From contig NZ_JALXXL010000005.1 in the NCBI RefSeq assembly GCF_025152525.1, positions 124,001 to 188,000 of the forward strand: a DNA stretch of 64,000 bases. Direction: 5' to 3'. A program made the translations under genes and the position numbers. This document shows, piece by piece, positions 648 through 9,992 of the stretch. This stretch comes from Corynebacterium sp. p3-SID1056 (GTDB lineage Bacteria; Actinomycetota; Actinomycetes; Mycobacteriales; Mycobacteriaceae). The notes beneath the pieces are model-generated. The model worked only from the letters and a program-made list of their open reading frames with translations, was not told where the DNA came from and made no database searches. Each line of letters begins with the position of its first letter. The stretch's first letter is position 1.

Positions 648-797
648 GATACTAGTCGGAACGTCAGGCCGGAAAGTTCCCGTCTGCGCCGAGCACATCA
701 TTCCTTTGGTTGATGTTAACCCCCAGACCTGCTGAGCACCCAATCAGACACGCGGCGCGAAAACCGATGAGTAGAACACTGCCGTGGTGGAGCCGAC

Positions 798-803
798 TAC
801 ACT
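798..803 (+). promoter_or_regulatory. Candidate -10 box for tkt
   Basis: TACACT matches the corynebacterial TANANT -10 pattern and lies about 115 nt before the tkt start. No good -35 element is seen 16-18 bp upstream, so this is only a candidate. Confidence 0.35.
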
Positions 804-919
804 GTGACACGCAAGCGCGCGACCGGGCGGGCGAGCCCGCTCCGGGCCCCGGCGTCGTGCCGGGTTCATGCGCGTCTGAACAGCACTTATTACATCGCGA
901 ACGATTGAGTGAGGATACT

Positions 920-3037
920 GTGACACAGTCGACCCTGCCCCCGGAACTGCAAGCCATGACCGTCCGTAATTACCCGGACGATTGGACAGAGACTGACACT
1001 CGCGCGGTCGACACCGCCCGTATCCTCGCCGCCGACGCGGTCGAGCGCTGCGGCTCCGGGCACCCCGGTACCGCAATGTCGCTGGCGCCTTTGGCTTACA
1101 CGCTCTACCAGCGCGTCATGCGTCTGGATCCGACCGACCCGCACTGGGTTGGCCGTGACCGCTTCGTGCTGTCGAACGGGCACTCCTCCCTTACCCAGTA
1201 CGTGCAGCTTTACCTCGGCGGCTTTGGCCTCGAGCTGGAAGACCTCAAGCAGCTGCGCACGTGGGGCGCGAAGACCCCGGGCCACCCCGAGTACAACCAC
1301 ACAGATCACGTGGAAATCACCACCGGCCCGCTCGGCCAGGGCCTAGCCTCCGCCGTAGGTATGGCTATGGCCGCGCGCCGCGAGCGTGGCCTGTTCGATC
1401 CGGAGACCCCGGCAGGCGAAAGCCCGTTTGACCACTACATCTACGTCGTTGCCGGCGACGGCTGCCTGCAGGAGGGCGTCACGTCCGAGGCTTCTTCGCT
1501 GGCGGGCACCCAGCAGCTGGGCAACCTGATTCTCTTCTGGGACGACAACCGCATCTCCATCGAAGACGACACGCAGATCGCGTTCACCGAGGACGTCATG
1601 GCGCGCTACGAGGCCTACGGCTGGCAGACGCTCACGGTCGAATCCGGCGAGGACATCGCGGCTATCGAGGAGGCTGTGGCGAAGGCGCAGGCAGAAACCA
1701 CGAAGCCGACGATCGTGCGTGTCAAGACCGTCATCGGCTACCCCGCCCCGAACCTGCAGAACACGGGCGCGGCGCACGGTGCAGCACTCGGTGCCGAGGA
1801 GATCAAGCTGGTCAAGGAAGCACTTGGCTTCGACACCGACGTCGACTTCCCCGAAGAAGACGAGGTGATCGCGCACACCCGCAAGCTCGGCGAGCGCGCG
1901 GCCGCTGCTCGCAGCGAATGGCAGGAGCGCTTCGACGCGTGGGCGGAAAAGCACCCCGAGCACAAGGCCCTGTTCGATCGCCTGACCGCGCGCGAACTGC
2001 CCGCCGGTTGGAAGGACGAGTTCCCCACCTGGGAGCCGGACGCGAAGGGCGTGGCGACTCGTAAGGCGTCGGCCGCGGCAATCCAGGCGGCAGCGGCCGC
2101 GCTTCCGGAGCTGTGGGGCGGCTCGGCTGACCTTGCCGGTTCCAACAACACCCTGATCAACGGCGCGCCGTCGTTTGGCCCAGAGTCCATCACCACCGAG
2201 ATGTTCACAGCAGAGCCCTACGGCCGCAATCTGCACTTCGGTATTCGCGAGCACGCCATGGGAGCAATCATGAACGGTATCGCGCTCCACGGCGGCACCC
2301 GCGTCTACGGCGGTACCTTCCTCATCTTCTCCGAGTACCTCTACCCCGCCATCCGCGTCGCGGCGCTGTCCGGCATTGACGGCTACTACGTCTTCACCCA
2401 CGATTCCATTGGCCTCGGCGAGGACGGCCCCACCCACCAGCCGGTGGAGACGCTCACCGCGCTGCGCGCCATCCCGGACCTTGCGGTGATCCGCCCCGCC
2501 GACGCAAACGAGACCTCCGCCGCGTGGATTGCCGCGCTCGAGGGTCGCGAGCAGCCGAAGGCGCTTGCCCTGTCGCGCCAGAACCTGCCGGTGCTCGAGG
2601 GCACGAAGGAGAAGGCCTTCGAGGGTGTGGCCAAGGGCGGCTATGTGCTTGTCGACGGGGCGAAGCCCACCCCCGACGTCATCCTCATCGCTTCCGGTTC
2701 CGAGGTCCAGTACGCCGTCGAGGCAGCCCAAGCACTGGCGAAGGATAACGTCACCGCGCGCGTGGTCTCCATGCCGTCGATCGACTGGTTCCTGGAGCAG
2801 CCCGCTGAGTACCAGGAGGAGGTCTTGCCGGCTGCAGTCAAGGCCCGTGTATCCGTGGAGGCAGGCACCGCGATGCCGTGGTACCGCTTCACCGGCGATC
2901 ACGGCCGCAACGTCTCTCTGGAGCACTTCGGTGCCTCCGCGCCGGGCGCTGAGCTCTTTGAGCGCTTCGGATTCACCACTGAGCACGTTGTGCAGGCAGC
3001 CCGCGAATCGCTCGCATCTGTTGCAGCACAGAAGTAA
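920..3037 (+). CDS. tkt: Transketolase
   Basis: Thiamine-diphosphate enzyme that moves two-carbon ketol units between sugar phosphates in the non-oxidative pentose phosphate pathway. The 705-residue protein has the usual length. Visible motifs are the substrate-binding GHPG (47-50), the ThDP motif starting GDGCLQEG (around 170) and ending DDNRI, and the pyrimidine-domain GLGEDGPTHQPVE. GTG at 920 was chosen because TGAGGA lies 5 nt upstream and the resulting N-terminus aligns with C. glutamicum Tkt; an upstream in-frame extension to 710 looks non-coding. It is first in an operon with tal, zwf and opcA-pgl, although a hairpin separates it from tal. Confidence 0.97.
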   Translation: MTQSTLPPELQAMTVRNYPDDWTETDTRAVDTARILAADAVERCGSGHPGTAMSLAPLAYTLYQRVMRLDPTDPHWVGRDRFVLSNGHSSLTQYVQLYLGGFGLELEDLKQLRTWGAKTPGHPEYNHTDHVEITTGPLGQGLASAVGMAMAARRERGLFDPETPAGESPFDHYIYVVAGDGCLQEGVTSEASSLAGTQQLGNLILFWDDNRISIEDDTQIAFTEDVMARYEAYGWQTLTVESGEDIAAIEEAVAKAQAETTKPTIVRVKTVIGYPAPNLQNTGAAHGAALGAEEIKLVKEALGFDTDVDFPEEDEVIAHTRKLGERAAAARSEWQERFDAWAEKHPEHKALFDRLTARELPAGWKDEFPTWEPDAKGVATRKASAAAIQAAAAALPELWGGSADLAGSNNTLINGAPSFGPESITTEMFTAEPYGRNLHFGIREHAMGAIMNGIALHGGTRVYGGTFLIFSEYLYPAIRVAALSGIDGYYVFTHDSIGLGEDGPTHQPVETLTALRAIPDLAVIRPADANETSAAWIAALEGREQPKALALSRQNLPVLEGTKEKAFEGVAKGGYVLVDGAKPTPDVILIASGSEVQYAVEAAQALAKDNVTARVVSMPSIDWFLEQPAEYQEEVLPAAVKARVSVEAGTAMPWYRFTGDHGRNVSLEHFGASAPGAELFERFGFTTEHVVQAARESLASVAAQK

Positions 3038-3049
3038 CCGCGACAGGTA

Positions 3050-3077
3050 AAAAGGGGCTGGGACACCAGCCCCTTTT
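3050..3077 (+). terminator. Hairpin terminator/attenuator between tkt and tal
   Basis: GGGGCTGG (3054-3061) pairs perfectly with CCAGCCCC (3066-3073) across a 4-nt loop and is followed by TTTT; AAAA precedes it, so it is symmetric. It sits inside an operon of same-strand genes, so it probably gives partial termination or 3'-end stabilisation of tkt mRNA. Confidence 0.7.
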
Positions 3078-3105
3078 GTCGACCCTACAACGAAAGGCAC
3101 ACACT

Positions 3106-4236
3106 ATGGCACACGAGAAGCACAACGGCCAGCACACCACCGTCGCGACCAACCGTCTGTACGACATCGGCACCTCAGTGTGGCTCGATGATCTCTCCCG
3201 CGACCTGCTCCACGGCACGGAGAACTTCGAGCTGTTTCTCTTAGAGCGCAACATTTTGGGCATTACGACGAACCCGGCAATCTTTTCCGCCGCGATCAGC
3301 GCCGGCGGCGACTACGATCGCCAGCTGGATGAGCTGCGGGAAGAGAACGTCACGGCGGAGGAAGCCGTGTACCGGATGAGCATCCGAGATGTGCAGGAGG
3401 CGTGCGACGTCCTTGCCGGGGTGTACCAGGACACGCACGGCCGCGATGGACGTGTCTCCATTGAGGTCGACCCGCGCTACGCGCATGACGAAGAAAAGAC
3501 CATTGCCCAGGCGCGCGAGCTGTGGAAGCAGGTGGCCCGGCCCAACGCGATGATTAAGATCCCGGCCACCGACGAGTCCCTGCCCGCGGTTACGACGGCG
3601 TTGTCGGAGGGCATCAGCGTCAACGTCACCCTGATCTTCTCCGTGGACCGCTATAAGCAGGTCATTGACGCGTACAAGGAGGGCCTGAAGCGTGCAGCTG
3701 CGCAGGGCCGCGATCTGGAGGAGATCCACTCCGTCGCTTCGTTTTTCGTTTCCCGCATGGACGTCGAGGTGGACAAGCGCCTCGAAACCATCGGCACCCC
3801 CGAGGCGCTCGCGCTGCGCGGCAAGGCGGGTATTGCCAATGCGCGCCTGGCCTACCACCTGTTCCTGGACTCTTTCACCGACGTCGACGAGTTGCCCCCG
3901 CGGGCCAATAAGCAGCGCCCCTTGTGGGCGTCCACCGGCGTGAAGAACCCCGAGTACCCGCAGAACATGTACGTGGTGGAGCTCGCCGGCCCGGACACGG
4001 TCAACACGATGCCCATGAACACAATCAACGTGGTCAACGAATTGGATCAGCTCAAGGGCGATACCTTGACCTACGCCGATGAGCAGGCGCGCGAGGTCTT
4101 CGATGGTCTGGAGCAGGTCGGCATCGACCTCGCCGACGTGGTTGCGGTACTCGAGCGTGAAGGCGTGGAGAAGTTTGTCACGGCGTGGCAAGACCTGCTT
4201 GACTCCACCGAAGAAAAACTCAACGCGGCGAAGTAA
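3106..4236 (+). CDS. tal: Transaldolase
   Basis: Transfers a dihydroxyacetone unit between sugar phosphates in the pentose phosphate pathway through a lysine Schiff base. The 376-residue protein belongs to the longer actinobacterial/cyanobacterial type. TNPAIF is at 55-60, the Schiff-base lysine is K151 in MIKIPAT, and the late motif LWASTGVKNP is present. The ATG at 3106 follows GAAAGG. It sits 68 bp after tkt, with a hairpin between, and is followed by zwf after a 16-nt gap. Confidence 0.97.
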   Translation: MAHEKHNGQHTTVATNRLYDIGTSVWLDDLSRDLLHGTENFELFLLERNILGITTNPAIFSAAISAGGDYDRQLDELREENVTAEEAVYRMSIRDVQEACDVLAGVYQDTHGRDGRVSIEVDPRYAHDEEKTIAQARELWKQVARPNAMIKIPATDESLPAVTTALSEGISVNVTLIFSVDRYKQVIDAYKEGLKRAAAQGRDLEEIHSVASFFVSRMDVEVDKRLETIGTPEALALRGKAGIANARLAYHLFLDSFTDVDELPPRANKQRPLWASTGVKNPEYPQNMYVVELAGPDTVNTMPMNTINVVNELDQLKGDTLTYADEQAREVFDGLEQVGIDLADVVAVLEREGVEKFVTAWQDLLDSTEEKLNAAK

Positions 4237-4252
4237 AGGAGACGCGTACAAG

Positions 4253-5800
4253 GTGAACGAAGAACGGGATGCCCAGGTGCAGGGAGGTAATCCGCTGCGC
4301 TCGGCCGTCGACAAGCGGCTGCCCCGCATCGCCGGCCCGTCCGGACTGGTGATTTTCGGCGTAACCGGCGATCTGGCACGCAAAAAGCTTCTGCCGGCGG
4401 TGTACGACCTGGCGAGTCGCGGGCTGCTCCCGGCCGGCTTTGCCCTCGTCGGTTTTGGCCGGCGCGACTGGTCGAAGCAGGAGTTTCAGGACTACGTGCG
4501 CCAGGCCGTGCAGGCACGTGCCCGCACCGAGTTCGACCAAAATGTCTGGGATCGACTCGCCGACGGCATGCATTTCGTCTCCGGTGCATTCGACGACGAT
4601 GCCGCTTTTGATGCGCTGGCCGCGACCCTCGCAAAGGCCGATCGCGCCCAGGGCGTCGGCGGCAACTGGGCCTTCTATCTGTCTGTCCCTCCGGAGCATT
4701 TCGCGAATGTCGTGCACCAGCTCGACCGCTGTGGGATGGCGCAGCCGGGTAAGGACGAGTGGCGCCGCGTCATCATCGAGAAGCCCTTCGGCCACGATCT
4801 GGCCTCTGCGAAGGAACTCAACAAGGTAGTCAACACGGTCTTCCCAGAACACGCCGTGTTCCGTATTGATCACTACCTGGGCAAGGAAACCGTGCAAAAC
4901 ATTATGGCGCTGCGGTTTTCCAACCAGCTTTTTGAGCCGATCTGGAACGCGAACTTTATCGACCACGTACAGATCACAATGGCTGAAGACATCGGGCTCG
5001 GCGGTCGCGCGGGCTACTACGACGGTATTGGTGCTGCCCGTGACGTCATCCAGAATCACCTTATCCAGCTGCTCGCCCTCGTCGCCATGGAGGAGCCGAC
5101 CTCCTTCTCCCCACGCCAGCTGCGCGCCGAGAAACTCAAGGTTTTGCGCGCTACCTCCGCCACCGGCCCGTTTGCTGAGACGACCGCCCGCGGCCAGTAC
5201 ACCGCGGGCCTGCAAGGATCAGTCCCCGTCGTTGGTCTGCGCGAGGAGGAGGGCTTCGACCCGGCCTCGAAGACAGAAACGTTTGCCGCGTGCACGTTAG
5301 AGATCAACTCGCGGCGCTGGGCCGGTGTGCCCTTCTATCTCCGCACCGGCAAGCGCCTCGGACGACGGGTAACCGAGATCGCCCTCGTGTTTAAGCGCCC
5401 GCCCTATCAGCCCTTCTACCCGGATCAGACGAACCTGCTCACCAACAACGCGGTGGTGATCCGCGTGCAGCCGGACGAGGGCGTGCTCATGCGCTTCGGC
5501 TCTAAGGTTCCGGGCGTGGGCCTGGAGGTGCGCGACGTCAACATGGACTTCTCCTACTCGGAGGCGTTTACCGAGCAATCCCCCGAGGCCTACGAGCGGC
5601 TCATCCTCGACGCCTTGCTGGACGAGTCCAGCTTGTTTCCCACCAACTCTGAGGTCGAGCGGAGCTGGGAGATCCTCGACCCGATCCTGGAGTACTGGGA
5701 TGCGCACGGCGAGCCGGACGAGTACCAGGCCGGCACCTGGGGTCCGGAATCAGCCGACCGCATGTTGGCAAAAGACGGCCGCACCTGGCGGCGCCCCTAA
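4253..5800 (+). CDS. zwf: Glucose-6-phosphate 1-dehydrogenase
   Basis: Oxidises glucose-6-phosphate to 6-phosphogluconolactone with NADP, the entry step of the oxidative pentose phosphate pathway. The 515-residue protein has the dinucleotide-binding GVTGDLA (36-42) and the active-site motif RIDHYLGKE (about 204-212), followed by a conserved C-terminal domain ending TWRRP. GTG at 4253 was chosen because AAAGGAG lies upstream and the protein then aligns at its N-terminus with corynebacterial Zwf. In corynebacteria Zwf works with OpcA, which is encoded next. Confidence 0.96.
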   Translation: MNEERDAQVQGGNPLRSAVDKRLPRIAGPSGLVIFGVTGDLARKKLLPAVYDLASRGLLPAGFALVGFGRRDWSKQEFQDYVRQAVQARARTEFDQNVWDRLADGMHFVSGAFDDDAAFDALAATLAKADRAQGVGGNWAFYLSVPPEHFANVVHQLDRCGMAQPGKDEWRRVIIEKPFGHDLASAKELNKVVNTVFPEHAVFRIDHYLGKETVQNIMALRFSNQLFEPIWNANFIDHVQITMAEDIGLGGRAGYYDGIGAARDVIQNHLIQLLALVAMEEPTSFSPRQLRAEKLKVLRATSATGPFAETTARGQYTAGLQGSVPVVGLREEEGFDPASKTETFAACTLEINSRRWAGVPFYLRTGKRLGRRVTEIALVFKRPPYQPFYPDQTNLLTNNAVVIRVQPDEGVLMRFGSKVPGVGLEVRDVNMDFSYSEAFTEQSPEAYERLILDALLDESSLFPTNSEVERSWEILDPILEYWDAHGEPDEYQAGTWGPESADRMLAKDGRTWRRP

Positions 5801-5827
5801 ACGCGTATAAGGAAAGGAAGCTGCGAC

Positions 5828-7516
5828 GTGATTATTTCGCTGCCGGATACCACTACCCGCCAAATCGCCGGCGCGCTGCTGAAAGCCCAGGAGAACTTTT
5901 CCATGGCCACGGGCCGCGTGCTCACCCTGCTCGTCGCCGCGCCTGATACGCAGGACTCGGAGACCATCCTCGAGACGGTACGCACTGCGACACGCGAGAA
6001 CCCGGCCCGCGTGATCGTGCTGCTGCTTGGCGACGCTTCGGCGCCCACAAGCATGAACGCCGACCTCATCGTCGCCGCGCATTCCGGTGCCTCCGAGATG
6101 GTCGTCATGCGCTTGTTCGGCGAGCTCACCCAGCACCTCGACGCGGTGGTGACTCCCCTGCTGCTGCCGGATACGCCAATCGTCGCGTGGTGGCCCGGCC
6201 AGGCGCCCGCGCGACCTGTCGAGTCGCAGCTCGGCGCAATCGCGCAGCGACGTATCACGAATGCGCTCGCCGACGACGCGGATGCGCCACTGCGGACCTT
6301 GGTCGAGGGCTACCACCCCGGGGATTCGGATATGGCGTGGTCGCGCATTACGCCATGGCGCGGGGTTGTCGCCTCGGCCCTCGACCGCTACGCCGACGAC
6401 CCGGTGCGGTCAGTCTCGATCGCTGGCGACCCGGCCGACCCGGCAGTGCTGCTCGCAGCCGGCTGGCTCGCCGCGTGTTTGGACGTGGAGGTCACGCGCG
6501 CCCCCGTGACGCGGCCCCGCAAGGGCGTGCCTGTCGAACACCTCGCGTTGCATTGCGCCAATGGCGACATCACCGTTGATGTCCTCGACGCGCATACCGC
6601 ACGCGTGGCGGTGCCGGGAAGCCCCGCATCGCACGTGGCGCTCGGCGCACGCTCGGACGCGTCGTGCCTGGCTGAGGAGCTACGCCACCTCGACGACGAC
6701 GTCACCTACGCCCGCGCACTGCAAGCCACGACGCTCGTGCGGGAGACGAACCGCGCTCCCTCGTCGGCACCTGCAGTCGACATCGTGCGCGCTGATGATC
6801 GTGCGGCGCTCGTCGAGGCCGCGGCCGACCGTCTCATGCGGCTGCTCGCAGACATCCAGGCGGACGGCACCGGTGGGCTGCACGGCGACGGCGTCCCGCG
6901 CGTGGTGCTCACGGGCGGCACTGCAGGCATAGAGCTGCTCTCAGTCCTCGCCGACCACGCCCAAGGCGGAGAGAGCCACGGTGTCGATTTTGGCGCAATC
7001 GAGTTGTTCTTCGGCGACGAGCGCAACGTGCCGGTGACCCACCCAGATTCGAACGAGGGCCAGGCCCGTCAGGCGCTTCTCGACCGCATTGGGGTGCCTG
7101 CCTCCCGCGTCCATGGTTGGGGCCTTGACGGTGGCGATATGCAGGCGGCAGTCGCCGACTATGAACGCATGCTCGACGTCGCCGCGCCGCGTGGCTTTGA
7201 CCTCCATCTTCTGGGCATGGGTGGTGAGGGGCACATCAATTCGCTGTTCCCCCACACTGACGCGGTCCGCGAGGCGAATGCGCGAGCATGCGCTGTCACC
7301 GACTCTCCGAAGCTTCCCGTACAGCGCACCACGCTCACGTTGCCCGCAGTGTGCAGCGCCGAGCGCGTGTGGCTGCTCGTCTCCGGCGCTGAAAAGGCGG
7401 AAGCCGCGGGCCACGTTGTTCGCGGTGCTGCCGCCGAGGACTGGCCCGCTGCGGGCGCACACGGCCGGCAAGAGACAGTGCTTTTTGTTTCTGAGGACGC
7501 CGCGGGCGAACTCTAG
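5828..7516 (+). CDS. opcA-pgl: Fused OpcA (G6PDH assembly protein) - 6-phosphogluconolactonase
   Basis: One uninterrupted 562-residue frame covers two proteins that are separate in C. glutamicum. Residues 1 to about 305 match OpcA, the glucose-6-phosphate dehydrogenase assembly/activation factor (N-terminal SLPDTTTRQI, PLLLPDTPIVAWWPG, RIAQRRIT-like stretch, AEELRHLDDD). After a short Pro/Ala/Ser linker, about 317-562 match 6-phosphogluconolactonase, which hydrolyses the Zwf product (FFGDERNVP, LLGMGGEGHINSLFPHTD, LLVSGAEKAEAA). There is no stop codon between the halves; in-frame GTG codons near residues 303 and 320 could give a separate Pgl by internal initiation. The GTG start at 5828 follows GGAAAGGAAG. 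The fusion would link consecutive steps physically. A sequencing error at the junction is the alternative. Confidence 0.9.
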   Translation: MIISLPDTTTRQIAGALLKAQENFSMATGRVLTLLVAAPDTQDSETILETVRTATRENPARVIVLLLGDASAPTSMNADLIVAAHSGASEMVVMRLFGELTQHLDAVVTPLLLPDTPIVAWWPGQAPARPVESQLGAIAQRRITNALADDADAPLRTLVEGYHPGDSDMAWSRITPWRGVVASALDRYADDPVRSVSIAGDPADPAVLLAAGWLAACLDVEVTRAPVTRPRKGVPVEHLALHCANGDITVDVLDAHTARVAVPGSPASHVALGARSDASCLAEELRHLDDDVTYARALQATTLVRETNRAPSSAPAVDIVRADDRAALVEAAADRLMRLLADIQADGTGGLHGDGVPRVVLTGGTAGIELLSVLADHAQGGESHGVDFGAIELFFGDERNVPVTHPDSNEGQARQALLDRIGVPASRVHGWGLDGGDMQAAVADYERMLDVAAPRGFDLHLLGMGGEGHINSLFPHTDAVREANARACAVTDSPKLPVQRTTLTLPAVCSAERVWLLVSGAEKAEAAGHVVRGAAAEDWPAAGAHGRQETVLFVSEDAAGEL

Positions 7517-7586: not shown

Positions 7587-7823
7587 TTACGCGGAATACG
7601 TCTGAATCAGGTTCAGCGCGATGATGCACGCCAACCAGATCAGAGAAATCAGGATGGTGTAGCGATCCAGGTTCTTCTCCACGATGGTCGAACCGGACAG
7701 GTTCGACTGCACGCCGCCGCCAAAGAGGCTGGACAGGCCGCCGCCTTTACCCTTGTGGAGCAGGACGAACACGGTCGCAAGCACCGATGCGATTACGAGC
7801 ACGATCTCCAGAGCCAACGTCAT
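7587..7823 (-). CDS. secG: Preprotein translocase subunit SecG
   Basis: Small membrane subunit of the SecYEG channel. The 78-residue protein has two predicted transmembrane helices (about 3-23 and 54-72) joined by a glycine-rich loop containing HKGKGGGLSSLFGGG, the SecG hallmark. It follows tpiA after about 120 bp and ends the gap-pgk-tpiA-secG run. In C. glutamicum ppc lies between tpi and secG; it is absent here. Confidence 0.95.
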   Translation of the reverse strand: MTLALEIVLVIASVLATVFVLLHKGKGGGLSSLFGGGVQSNLSGSTIVEKNLDRYTILISLIWLACIIALNLIQTYSA

Positions 7824-7945
7824 GTGGGGCTATCCTCCACTTTCACTTTGGGAAATTTCTTGAACCTGCATAAGCCTACACCATCACCTTTTCGGGCCCC
7901 GCGGCGGACACACGGCTTCTCAAGCGTCCGCCGCGATCCGCGCGG

Positions 7946-8728
7946 CTAGGCGACGGCGTTGGCCGCAGCGGCTGCCAGTTTGGCAAAGTCGTCGCCCTTG
8001 AGCGACGCGCCGCCAACCAGCCCGCCGTCGACGTCCGGCTGACCGACGATCTCGGCGACGGTCTCGGTCTTGACGGATCCGCCATACAGGATGCGGATGC
8101 CATCGGCCGTCGCATCGTCAGCAAGCTCGCGGACCAGCTCGCGGATGGCGTGGCAGACTTCCTGCGCATCCTCCGCAGAGGCGACCTTGCCGGTACCGAT
8201 GGCCCACACCGGCTCGTAGGCGATGACCGTGCGGTTGAGTTCCTCCGTGCTCAGTCCGGCCAGCGAAGCGCGGGTCTGCTCCTCGACGAAGCTCACGTGC
8301 TTGCCTTCCTCGCGCACCTCGAGCGGCTCGCCCACGCACACGATCGGCGAGATGCCGTGCGCGAGAGCCTTCTTCGCCTTCGCGGCGACGAGCTCGTCGC
8401 TCTCGTTGTGGTACTGGCGGCGCTCGGAGTGGCCGACGACGACCCAGCTGCACCCCAGCTTCTCCAGCATGGCGGCGGAGATTTCGCCGGTGTATGCGCC
8501 ATTGTCGTGCTGGGACACGTCCTGGGCACCGTAGGTGATCTGCAGCTTGTCGCCCTCGACGAGCGTCTGCACCGAACGCAGGTCGGTGAACGGGACCGTC
8601 AGCGCGACATCGACAAGTTCGTAGCCGTCCTTCGGGAAGGCAAAGGCGAGCTTCTGTGCGCTGGAGATTGCCTCAAGGTGATCGAGGTTCATCTTCCAGT
8701 TGCCGGCAATGAGTGGCTTGCGTGCCAT
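7946..8728 (-). CDS. tpiA: Triosephosphate isomerase
   Basis: Interconverts dihydroxyacetone phosphate and glyceraldehyde-3-phosphate in glycolysis. The 260-residue TIM barrel has the substrate-binding lysine in GNWKMN (9-14), catalytic H100 in VVGHSERR, catalytic E172 in [11 protein letters not shown], and the phosphate-binding YGGSVK. The ATG at 8728 gives the standard N-terminus [14 protein letters not shown] with GAGGAG 9-10 nt upstream; the frame stays open further upstream but that part is not family-like. It lies 46 bp downstream of pgk. Confidence 0.97.
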
Positions 8729-8774
8729 AGGTATGTACTCCTCTTTCAAGTAAACGGGATACGTGGGGTAAGGA

Positions 8775-9992
8775 CTACTTCGACAGGACGACGACGCCCG
8801 GCAGTTCCTTGCCCTCGATGAGTTCCAGGGAGGCGCCACCGCCGGTGGAGATGTGGGAGAACCCATCCTCGTCGAGGCCGAGGGTGCGAACGGAGGCGGC
8901 AGAGTCGCCGCCACCGACGACGGTGAAGGAATCGTTGTGCTTCGTTGCCGCGATCATCGCCTCGGCGACCGCCTTCGTGCCGTCGGCAAACTGCGGGAAC
9001 TCGAACACGCCCATCGGGCCGTTCCAGAACACCGTCTTCGAGTCCTCGATAGCCGCGGCGTACAGCTTGGCCGTCTCCGGACCGATGTCCAAGGACATCC
9101 AGCCCTCCGGGATACCGTCCAAATCGACGGTCTTCTTTTCCGCATCCTTGTCAAACTTCTCTGCGACAGCCAGGTCGACTGGCAAGACGAGCTTATCCCC
9201 GTAACGCTCGATGAGCTCCTTGCAGGTTGCAATCATGTCTTCCTGCAGCAGGGAATTCTGGACGTTGTGGCCCTGCGCTGCGAGGAAGGTGTAGCACATG
9301 CCACCGCCGATGACGACCTTGTCTGCCTTTTCCGCCAACGCTTCAATCACACCGAGCTTGTCCGAGACCTTGGAGCCGCCCAGCACGACGACGTAGGGGT
9401 GAGCCGGGGCATCCTTGACCGACGAGAGCGTAGAGACTTCCTTCTCGACCAAGTAGCCGGCGTAGGCCGGGAGCTTCTTCGCAATGTCGTACACCGAGGC
9501 CTGCGCGCGGTGCACCACGCCGAAGCCGTCAGAGACAAAGGCACCGTTATCAGCGGCCAGGGCGGCCAACTCTGCCGCGAATTCCTCTCGTTCCGCCTCG
9601 TCCTTGGAGGTTTCGCGCGGATCGAAGCGTACGTTCTCCAGCAGTAGGATCTCGCCTTCGGTCAGGCCGTTGGCGCGCTCGTGCGCGTCTTCGCCAGAGA
9701 CGTCCCCGGCGAGCGCGACGAACTGGCCAAGACGCTCGGAGAGCGCTTCCGCCACAGGCTTCAGCGAAAAGGCGGGGTTGACCTGGCCCTTCGGGCGCCC
9801 CAGGTGCGCCATGGCGATGACCTTCGCGCCGCCATCGAGGAGTGCGCGAAGGGTCGGCAGAGAGGCGTCAATGCGACCCGCGTCGGTGATGTTGCCGTCC
9901 TCGTCGAGGGGGACGTTGAAGTCGGATCGGACGATGACGTGGCGGCCGTCCACGCCTTCGTCGAGAAGCTGCTGCAGTGTTTGCGTGGTCAT
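8775..9992 (-). CDS. pgk: Phosphoglycerate kinase
   Basis: Transfers phosphate from 1,3-bisphosphoglycerate to ADP in lower glycolysis. The 405-residue two-domain protein shows the N-terminal substrate motif [12 protein letters not shown], the GGSKVSDK nucleotide region and the C-terminal GGGDSAASV phosphate loop. The ATG at 9992 is preceded by AAGGAGCA. It lies 114 bp after gap, with a hairpin in between, and ahead of tpiA. Confidence 0.98.

Follow-up and report, generated by a model that had tools for sequence, protein, structure and literature searches.

A fused opcA-pgl gene in the pentose phosphate operon of a Corynebacterium, with similar fusions in other actinobacteria

Do OpcA, the assembly factor of glucose-6-phosphate dehydrogenase (G6PDH), and 6-phosphogluconolactonase (Pgl) form a single protein in Corynebacterium sp. 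p3-SID1056, and what would such a protein do? The window (the whole stretch of DNA analysed, 64,000 nucleotides) had been predicted from its letters to hold opcA and pgl in one 562-residue frame with no stop between them. This is what we find. The frame at 5828-7516 on the forward strand is uninterrupted, carries three Pfam domains and has a calculated mass of 58.9 kDa. The gene and its upstream neighbours are as follows.

710..3037, forward strand: tkt (transketolase), operon neighbour; a listed open reading frame, within which the true start probably lies; named from operon order.
3076..4236, forward strand: tal (transaldolase), operon neighbour; a listed open reading frame, named from operon order.
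4253..5800, forward strand: zwf (G6PDH), directly upstream; the listed open reading frame is 4079-5800, with GTG 4253 the likely true start by inspection.
5809..5818, forward strand: ribosome-binding site of the fused gene, AAGGAAAGGA; the upstream stretch forms a duplex of -10.3 kcal/mol with the 16S tail.
5828..7516, forward strand: opcA-pgl fusion gene; 562 codons, GTG start, TAG stop.
5828..6736, forward strand: OpcA part, residues 1-303; PF10128 at 53-155 and PF20171 at 164-298.
6737..6781, forward strand: linker, residues about 304-318, VRETNRAPSSAPAVD; low model confidence.
6797..7480, forward strand: 6-phosphogluconolactonase domain, residues 324-551; PF01182, with GDER at 396-399 and GEGH at 466-469.

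The fusion starts 27 bases past the zwf stop, as the next gene of the pentose phosphate operon. It is followed by a secG-like sequence (about 7588-7840, reverse strand) and tpiA (7946-8914, reverse strand), both named by reading, and no ppc is located between these and the fusion in the window. In genomes G002 and G091 ppc is found close to pgl; in G001, a near relative, it is on a different contig from the fusion.

All three Pfam domains are matched across most of their models, the two OpcA domains in order, and score above the curated cut-offs: PF10128 with 96.5 bits (E 1.4e-27, cut-off 27.9), PF20171 with 125.3 bits (E 3e-36, cut-off 27.7) and PF01182 with 191.2 bits (E 3e-56, cut-off 27). 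The Pfam domains G6PD_N and G6PD_C are absent from the fusion; both sit in the separate upstream open reading frame. The NCBIfam model for pgl, TIGR01198, is also passed (177.8 bits, cut-off 124.45). The OpcA equivalog model TIGR00534 is matched over about its whole length with 172.1 bits, below its cut-off of 256.25. An unfused Corynebacterium protein (P0008, 194.1 bits) misses the same cut-off, as do all six fused proteins tested (172.1 to 253.5 bits), so the low score reflects divergence and not damage. R399 of GDER and H469 of the GxGH motif are invariant across 23 aligned fused proteins; we take both residues to be catalytic, from the T. brucei enzyme. The SPKPP motif of the window fusion has a leucine at residue 496 (7313-7315). 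The position is proline in 21 of the 23 aligned proteins and serine in one, and is proline in P0001, the relative with 99% identity. For the OpcA part, a profile search gave a match to the OpcA chain of 9emm, a complex with G6PDH (E 4.1e-11, positions 54-224). Foldseek paired the lactonase half with mycobacterial lactonases of solved structure (for example 4tm7, TM 0.92 by target length). The 50 Foldseek matches at E up to 0.001 comprise 47 lactonase or deaminase folds and three marginal ones, and no PDB match to the OpcA half is among the matches listed.

That two genes appear as one through a missed stop or a frameshift in the assembly has a negligible probability in our judgement, and we reject an assembly artefact. 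We found no point in its favour. A protein search gave 1050 matches, the first three of which, P0001, P0002 and P0003 (99, 85 and 76% identity), are likewise fused; P0001 comes from ENA. Locus L001 (Corynebacterium sp. HMSC074A01), of which P0002 is a near-duplicate, belongs to a separate genome project and is also fused. The junction in the window contains neither a stop nor a ribosome site. Among the best 120 of the 1050 matches, 37 have at least 440 residues and every one of these has the three Pfam domains; the fused proteins of this set include ones from Brachybacterium and Ornithinimicrobium. The search of related genomes suggested in the original prediction thus recovers the same fusion in related Corynebacterium. 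Relatives that differ from the window by a frameshift alone were not encountered. Among unfused relatives the nearest found is C. gottingense (L010; identity 70% in OpcA and 69% in Pgl), which is set apart by a stop codon, spacer and ribosome site: at the place of the window's linker codons it has TAA, then AGAAGGAGG, then GTG. The window therefore contains a confirmed, genuine opcA-pgl fusion.

We also considered whether the fusion could be redundant, with a second free lactonase elsewhere, and rejected this on the content of G001. In G001, the nearest searchable fused genome, the fusion is the sole opcA and the sole PF01182 gene, and a profile search for a PF10282 lactonase gave no match. 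G017 has one PF01182 match in total. G002, G091, G134 and G472 each have a second PF01182 match with a lower score (86.8 to 94.1 bits), taken here for a putative NagB-type deaminase; G472 also carries a PF10282 lactonase.

A linker between the two parts had been predicted, and residues about 304-318 fit this description. In an AlphaFold2 model built on 23 fused sequences (mean pLDDT 86.7, pTM 0.55), pLDDT falls below 50 solely at residues 307-315, as for a disordered segment. The pTM fits two well-formed parts whose mutual orientation is not firmly predicted by the model. Between the window and L001, residues 299-323 (23 aligned codons) have dN 0.295, dS 1.01 and pN/pS 0.44, with an in-frame gap of two whole codons. 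The corresponding values are dN 0.048 and dS 0.65 for the OpcA part and dN 0.141 and dS 0.90 for the lactonase part. The junction thus shows, over a small number of codons (23), the pattern of a translated, loosely constrained linker. An open frame at the junction is by itself not improbable, since the DNA is GC-rich and one of the two other frames of the same strand is also open over the 130 bases around it; it is more than chance because relatives keep the frame while the length of the linker shifts by whole codons.

In-frame GTG codons near the junction had been taken to leave room for two products. The codons are present.

6737..6739, forward strand: internal in-frame GTG, residue 304; no Shine-Dalgarno sequence, duplex +0.1 kcal/mol.
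6785..6787, forward strand: internal in-frame GTG, residue 320; no Shine-Dalgarno sequence, duplex -1.7 kcal/mol.

In-frame ATG, GTG and TTG codons near the junction were scored by the energy of the duplex with the 16S tail. The background was 2198 in-frame start-like codons inside opcA (median -3.0 kcal/mol), and the best candidate pgl start in the 134 unfused loci has a median of -7.9 kcal/mol. Both GTG codons of the window are weaker than the background and than the unfused pgl starts, so dual products from the window gene are disfavoured on these energies. An ATG located 33 codons past the first GTG reaches -2.0 kcal/mol, and the best junction starts of L001 and L111 reach -2.8 and -3.2 kcal/mol. 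L001 shares the GTG at residue 304; the one at residue 320 aligns with an alanine there and is not kept. A start that dispenses with a Shine-Dalgarno sequence is conceivable on sequence grounds. That the window's frame yields a free lactonase by initiation at one of these GTG codons, in addition to the fusion, nevertheless seems to us improbable. Other loci give such initiation more room. C. uropygiale (L007) has, near 4964, an in-frame ATG preceded by AAGGAG (-8.3 kcal/mol, a value that 4.7% of the background attains), and L112 has a junction GTG at -9.8 kcal/mol (2.4%); L113 is borderline (-6.7 kcal/mol, 11.9%). Inside the fused frame, both L007 and L112 retain a start codon with a good ribosome site, from which a free lactonase could also arise. 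In these two loci, dual products are a live possibility judged by their start regions.

The fusion is rare yet recurrent. A single genome scan gave 80 loci, of which 78 could be scored (two fused, 76 split; L064 and L076 were left unscored). The genome counts come from the matches listed and are lower bounds; a long linker can also split one match in two. At least five of 242 Corynebacterium genomes (G001, G002, G091, G134 and G017) have an uninterrupted match over both parts. In a class sample of 394 genomes (348 with any match) at least two, G001 and G472, are fused, and in the order of G472 (297 genomes, 259 with any match) at least 23 are fused among the matches listed. Most fused loci of that order (L144-L166) have the linker motif FAtGKPxPtDvV in common.

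Trees point to several origins. Both were quick trees with SH-aLRT support only. The 73-row tree was calculated from OpcA and Pgl joined, with the linker excluded; 28 of 101 rows had been removed as near-duplicates (more than 85% shared four-letter words, P0001 exempt), most loci outside Corynebacterium were excluded, and six long end branches are present among the unfused rows. It requires four switches between the fused and the split state, each of them imposed by well-supported branches. The fused groups are the window with P0001, L001 and P0003; the pair L007 and L112; the pair L113 and P0006; and L111, a near-duplicate of C. kutscheri P0005. One ancestral fusion was rejected, as a single clade of the nine fused Corynebacterium rows has p-AU 1.4e-62. 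Joining the window group with L007 and L112 (p 0.00029) or with L113 and P0006 (p 4.5e-7) was also rejected; the groupings tested were chosen after inspection of the tree. A wider actinobacterial tree of 76 hand-picked rows (27 fused, 49 split) has ten changes, nine of them forced. Its fused tips P0038 (which lacks an N-terminal part), P0078, P0108 and P0120 were taken as single database protein sequences. The tree counts cannot separate gain from loss; we favour gains, given the predominance of unfused forms and the lack of similarity among the linkers.

The chief rival to a functional reading is neutral loss of a stop, in which co-transcribed close neighbours were fused by chance and the joined protein works like the separate ones. 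We give this a substantial minority chance. Unfused spacers are short (median 18 bases, quartiles -4 and 42, in 134 loci, measured to the candidate pgl start with the best ribosome site), and opcA and pgl share a frame in 53 of these 134 loci. Within the same operon tkt and tal are fused in one clade; C. sp. MSK297, C. pseudodiphtheriticum and C. propinquum (L041, L042 and L043) have them in one frame with an Ala/Ser/Pro-rich joint. Since short spacers ease fusion and a second pair of this operon is also joined, a neutral origin is possible. The internal ribosome site and start kept by L007 and L112 are as expected soon after a simple loss of a stop. The same caution on neutral origin has been voiced for eukaryotic fusions (PMC3148214). 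Set against this is the repetition of opcA-pgl. This pair is fused in 31 of 171 loci, a number inflated by fetching fused loci best first and by some duplicates, whereas zwf-opcA is fused in 0 of 130, although the gap between the homologous parts is shorter, tal-zwf in 0 of 81 and tkt-tal in 3 of 74. Counted as independent events, which are few and make the contrast statistically weak, opcA-pgl has about five, zwf-opcA and tal-zwf none and tkt-tal one. The presence of the fusion in at least 23 of the 297 genomes of G472's order, with a shared linker motif, also argues against pure chance. The contrast between operon pairs leans towards selection, though it could have arisen by chance. As the fusion is rare (at least five of 242 Corynebacterium genomes), any benefit would be at most mild or conditional.

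Fusion by stop loss with a functional consequence is the reading that we prefer and regard as probable: one OpcA-Pgl polypeptide would place the lactonase beside G6PDH at an OpcA:Pgl ratio of 1:1 and raise the local capture of lactone. The operon neighbours would have been joined by loss of a stop and the fusion fixed in a small Corynebacterium lineage, as far as sampled. By comparison with unfused relatives, the window has lost the stop of opcA, the spacer and the ribosome site of pgl, and a flexible linker of about 15 residues has taken their place. The product would be one 59 kDa OpcA-Pgl polypeptide, with little or no separate lactonase from the same gene, as the internal ribosome site is missing. 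The OpcA half is expected from its family to bind G6PDH, and each docked OpcA would bring a lactonase beside the enzyme making its labile substrate. Binding of OpcA to tetrameric G6PDH has been described in cyanobacteria (PMC13071761), and in C. glutamicum opcA is counted among the genes for glucose 6-phosphate dehydrogenase (PMC2230225). In the cyanobacterial complex, the known structure of this kind, a single OpcA sits on each G6PDH tetramer (PMC13071761), so stoichiometry and geometry may differ in the lineage of the window. Tethering of the lactonase to the Zwf-OpcA complex, as originally proposed, would be the likeliest consequence of the fusion. Channelling of the lactone, the other part of that proposal, would not be needed for a benefit: local capture of 6-phosphogluconolactone should rise even with no true tunnelling.

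Recurrence in other lineages suggests that the arrangement may be favoured. A bolder and more doubtful reading, which we offer tentatively, is that actinobacteria have repeatedly and convergently tethered Pgl to G6PDH via OpcA, at least four times in Corynebacterium. An OpcA-Zwf-Pgl assembly would then already be present in unfused species, and capture of the lactone at its source would raise oxidative pentose phosphate flux or prevent damage by the lactone. A ribosome site kept in the frame (C. uropygiale, G134) and one erased (the window lineage, the C. kutscheri-like G091) could represent stages of commitment. That operon neighbours fuse repeatedly is a classical sign of products acting together, and it predicts contact of OpcA with Pgl, or of Zwf, OpcA and Pgl, in unfused species, including the amino-acid producer C. 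glutamicum. The natural pairs of fused and split genes offer a means of asking whether tethering of the lactonase alters NADPH supply.

In C. glutamicum the gene order is tkt-tal-zwf-opcA-devB (PMC2230225), as in the window. The original prediction described opcA and pgl as separate neighbours in this species, in agreement with the same source, which has them as two genes, cg1779 and cg1780; in the window they are fused. Other actinobacterial fusions, in C. kutscheri (P0005), C. uropygiale (L007), Brachybacterium (P0063) and Ornithinimicrobium (P0089 and P0100), have the domain order of the window, but are located on separate tree branches and have dissimilar linkers of 16 to about 70 residues. 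Protein databases already contain the architecture, labelled for instance OpcA or 6-phosphogluconolactonase; among the titles and abstract openings listed in searches of open-licence PMC papers, none described an opcA-pgl fusion. The cyanobacterial OpcA of 9emm matches the OpcA half of the window by profile, but its 498-residue chain has no matched lactonase part; this OpcA is redox-controlled (PMC13071761). Eukaryotic G6PD-6PGL fusions (metazoan H6PD, Plasmodium GluPho, Giardia and Trichomonas G6PD::6PGL) likewise join 6-phosphogluconolactonase to the G6PDH step, and arose several times independently (PMC3148214); opcA has no occurrence in the main text of that source. In the eukaryotic proteins the lactonase is on the catalytic G6PDH chain, whereas in the window it is on the assembly or activator protein OpcA and Zwf is separate. 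In the NADPH-making pentose phosphate pathway, the opcA-pgl gene unites the second enzyme with a helper subunit of the first, and may keep the two steps adjacent. Bacteria would thus reach the pairing of G6PDH and lactonase through a helper subunit, more than once, and eukaryotes through the catalytic chain.
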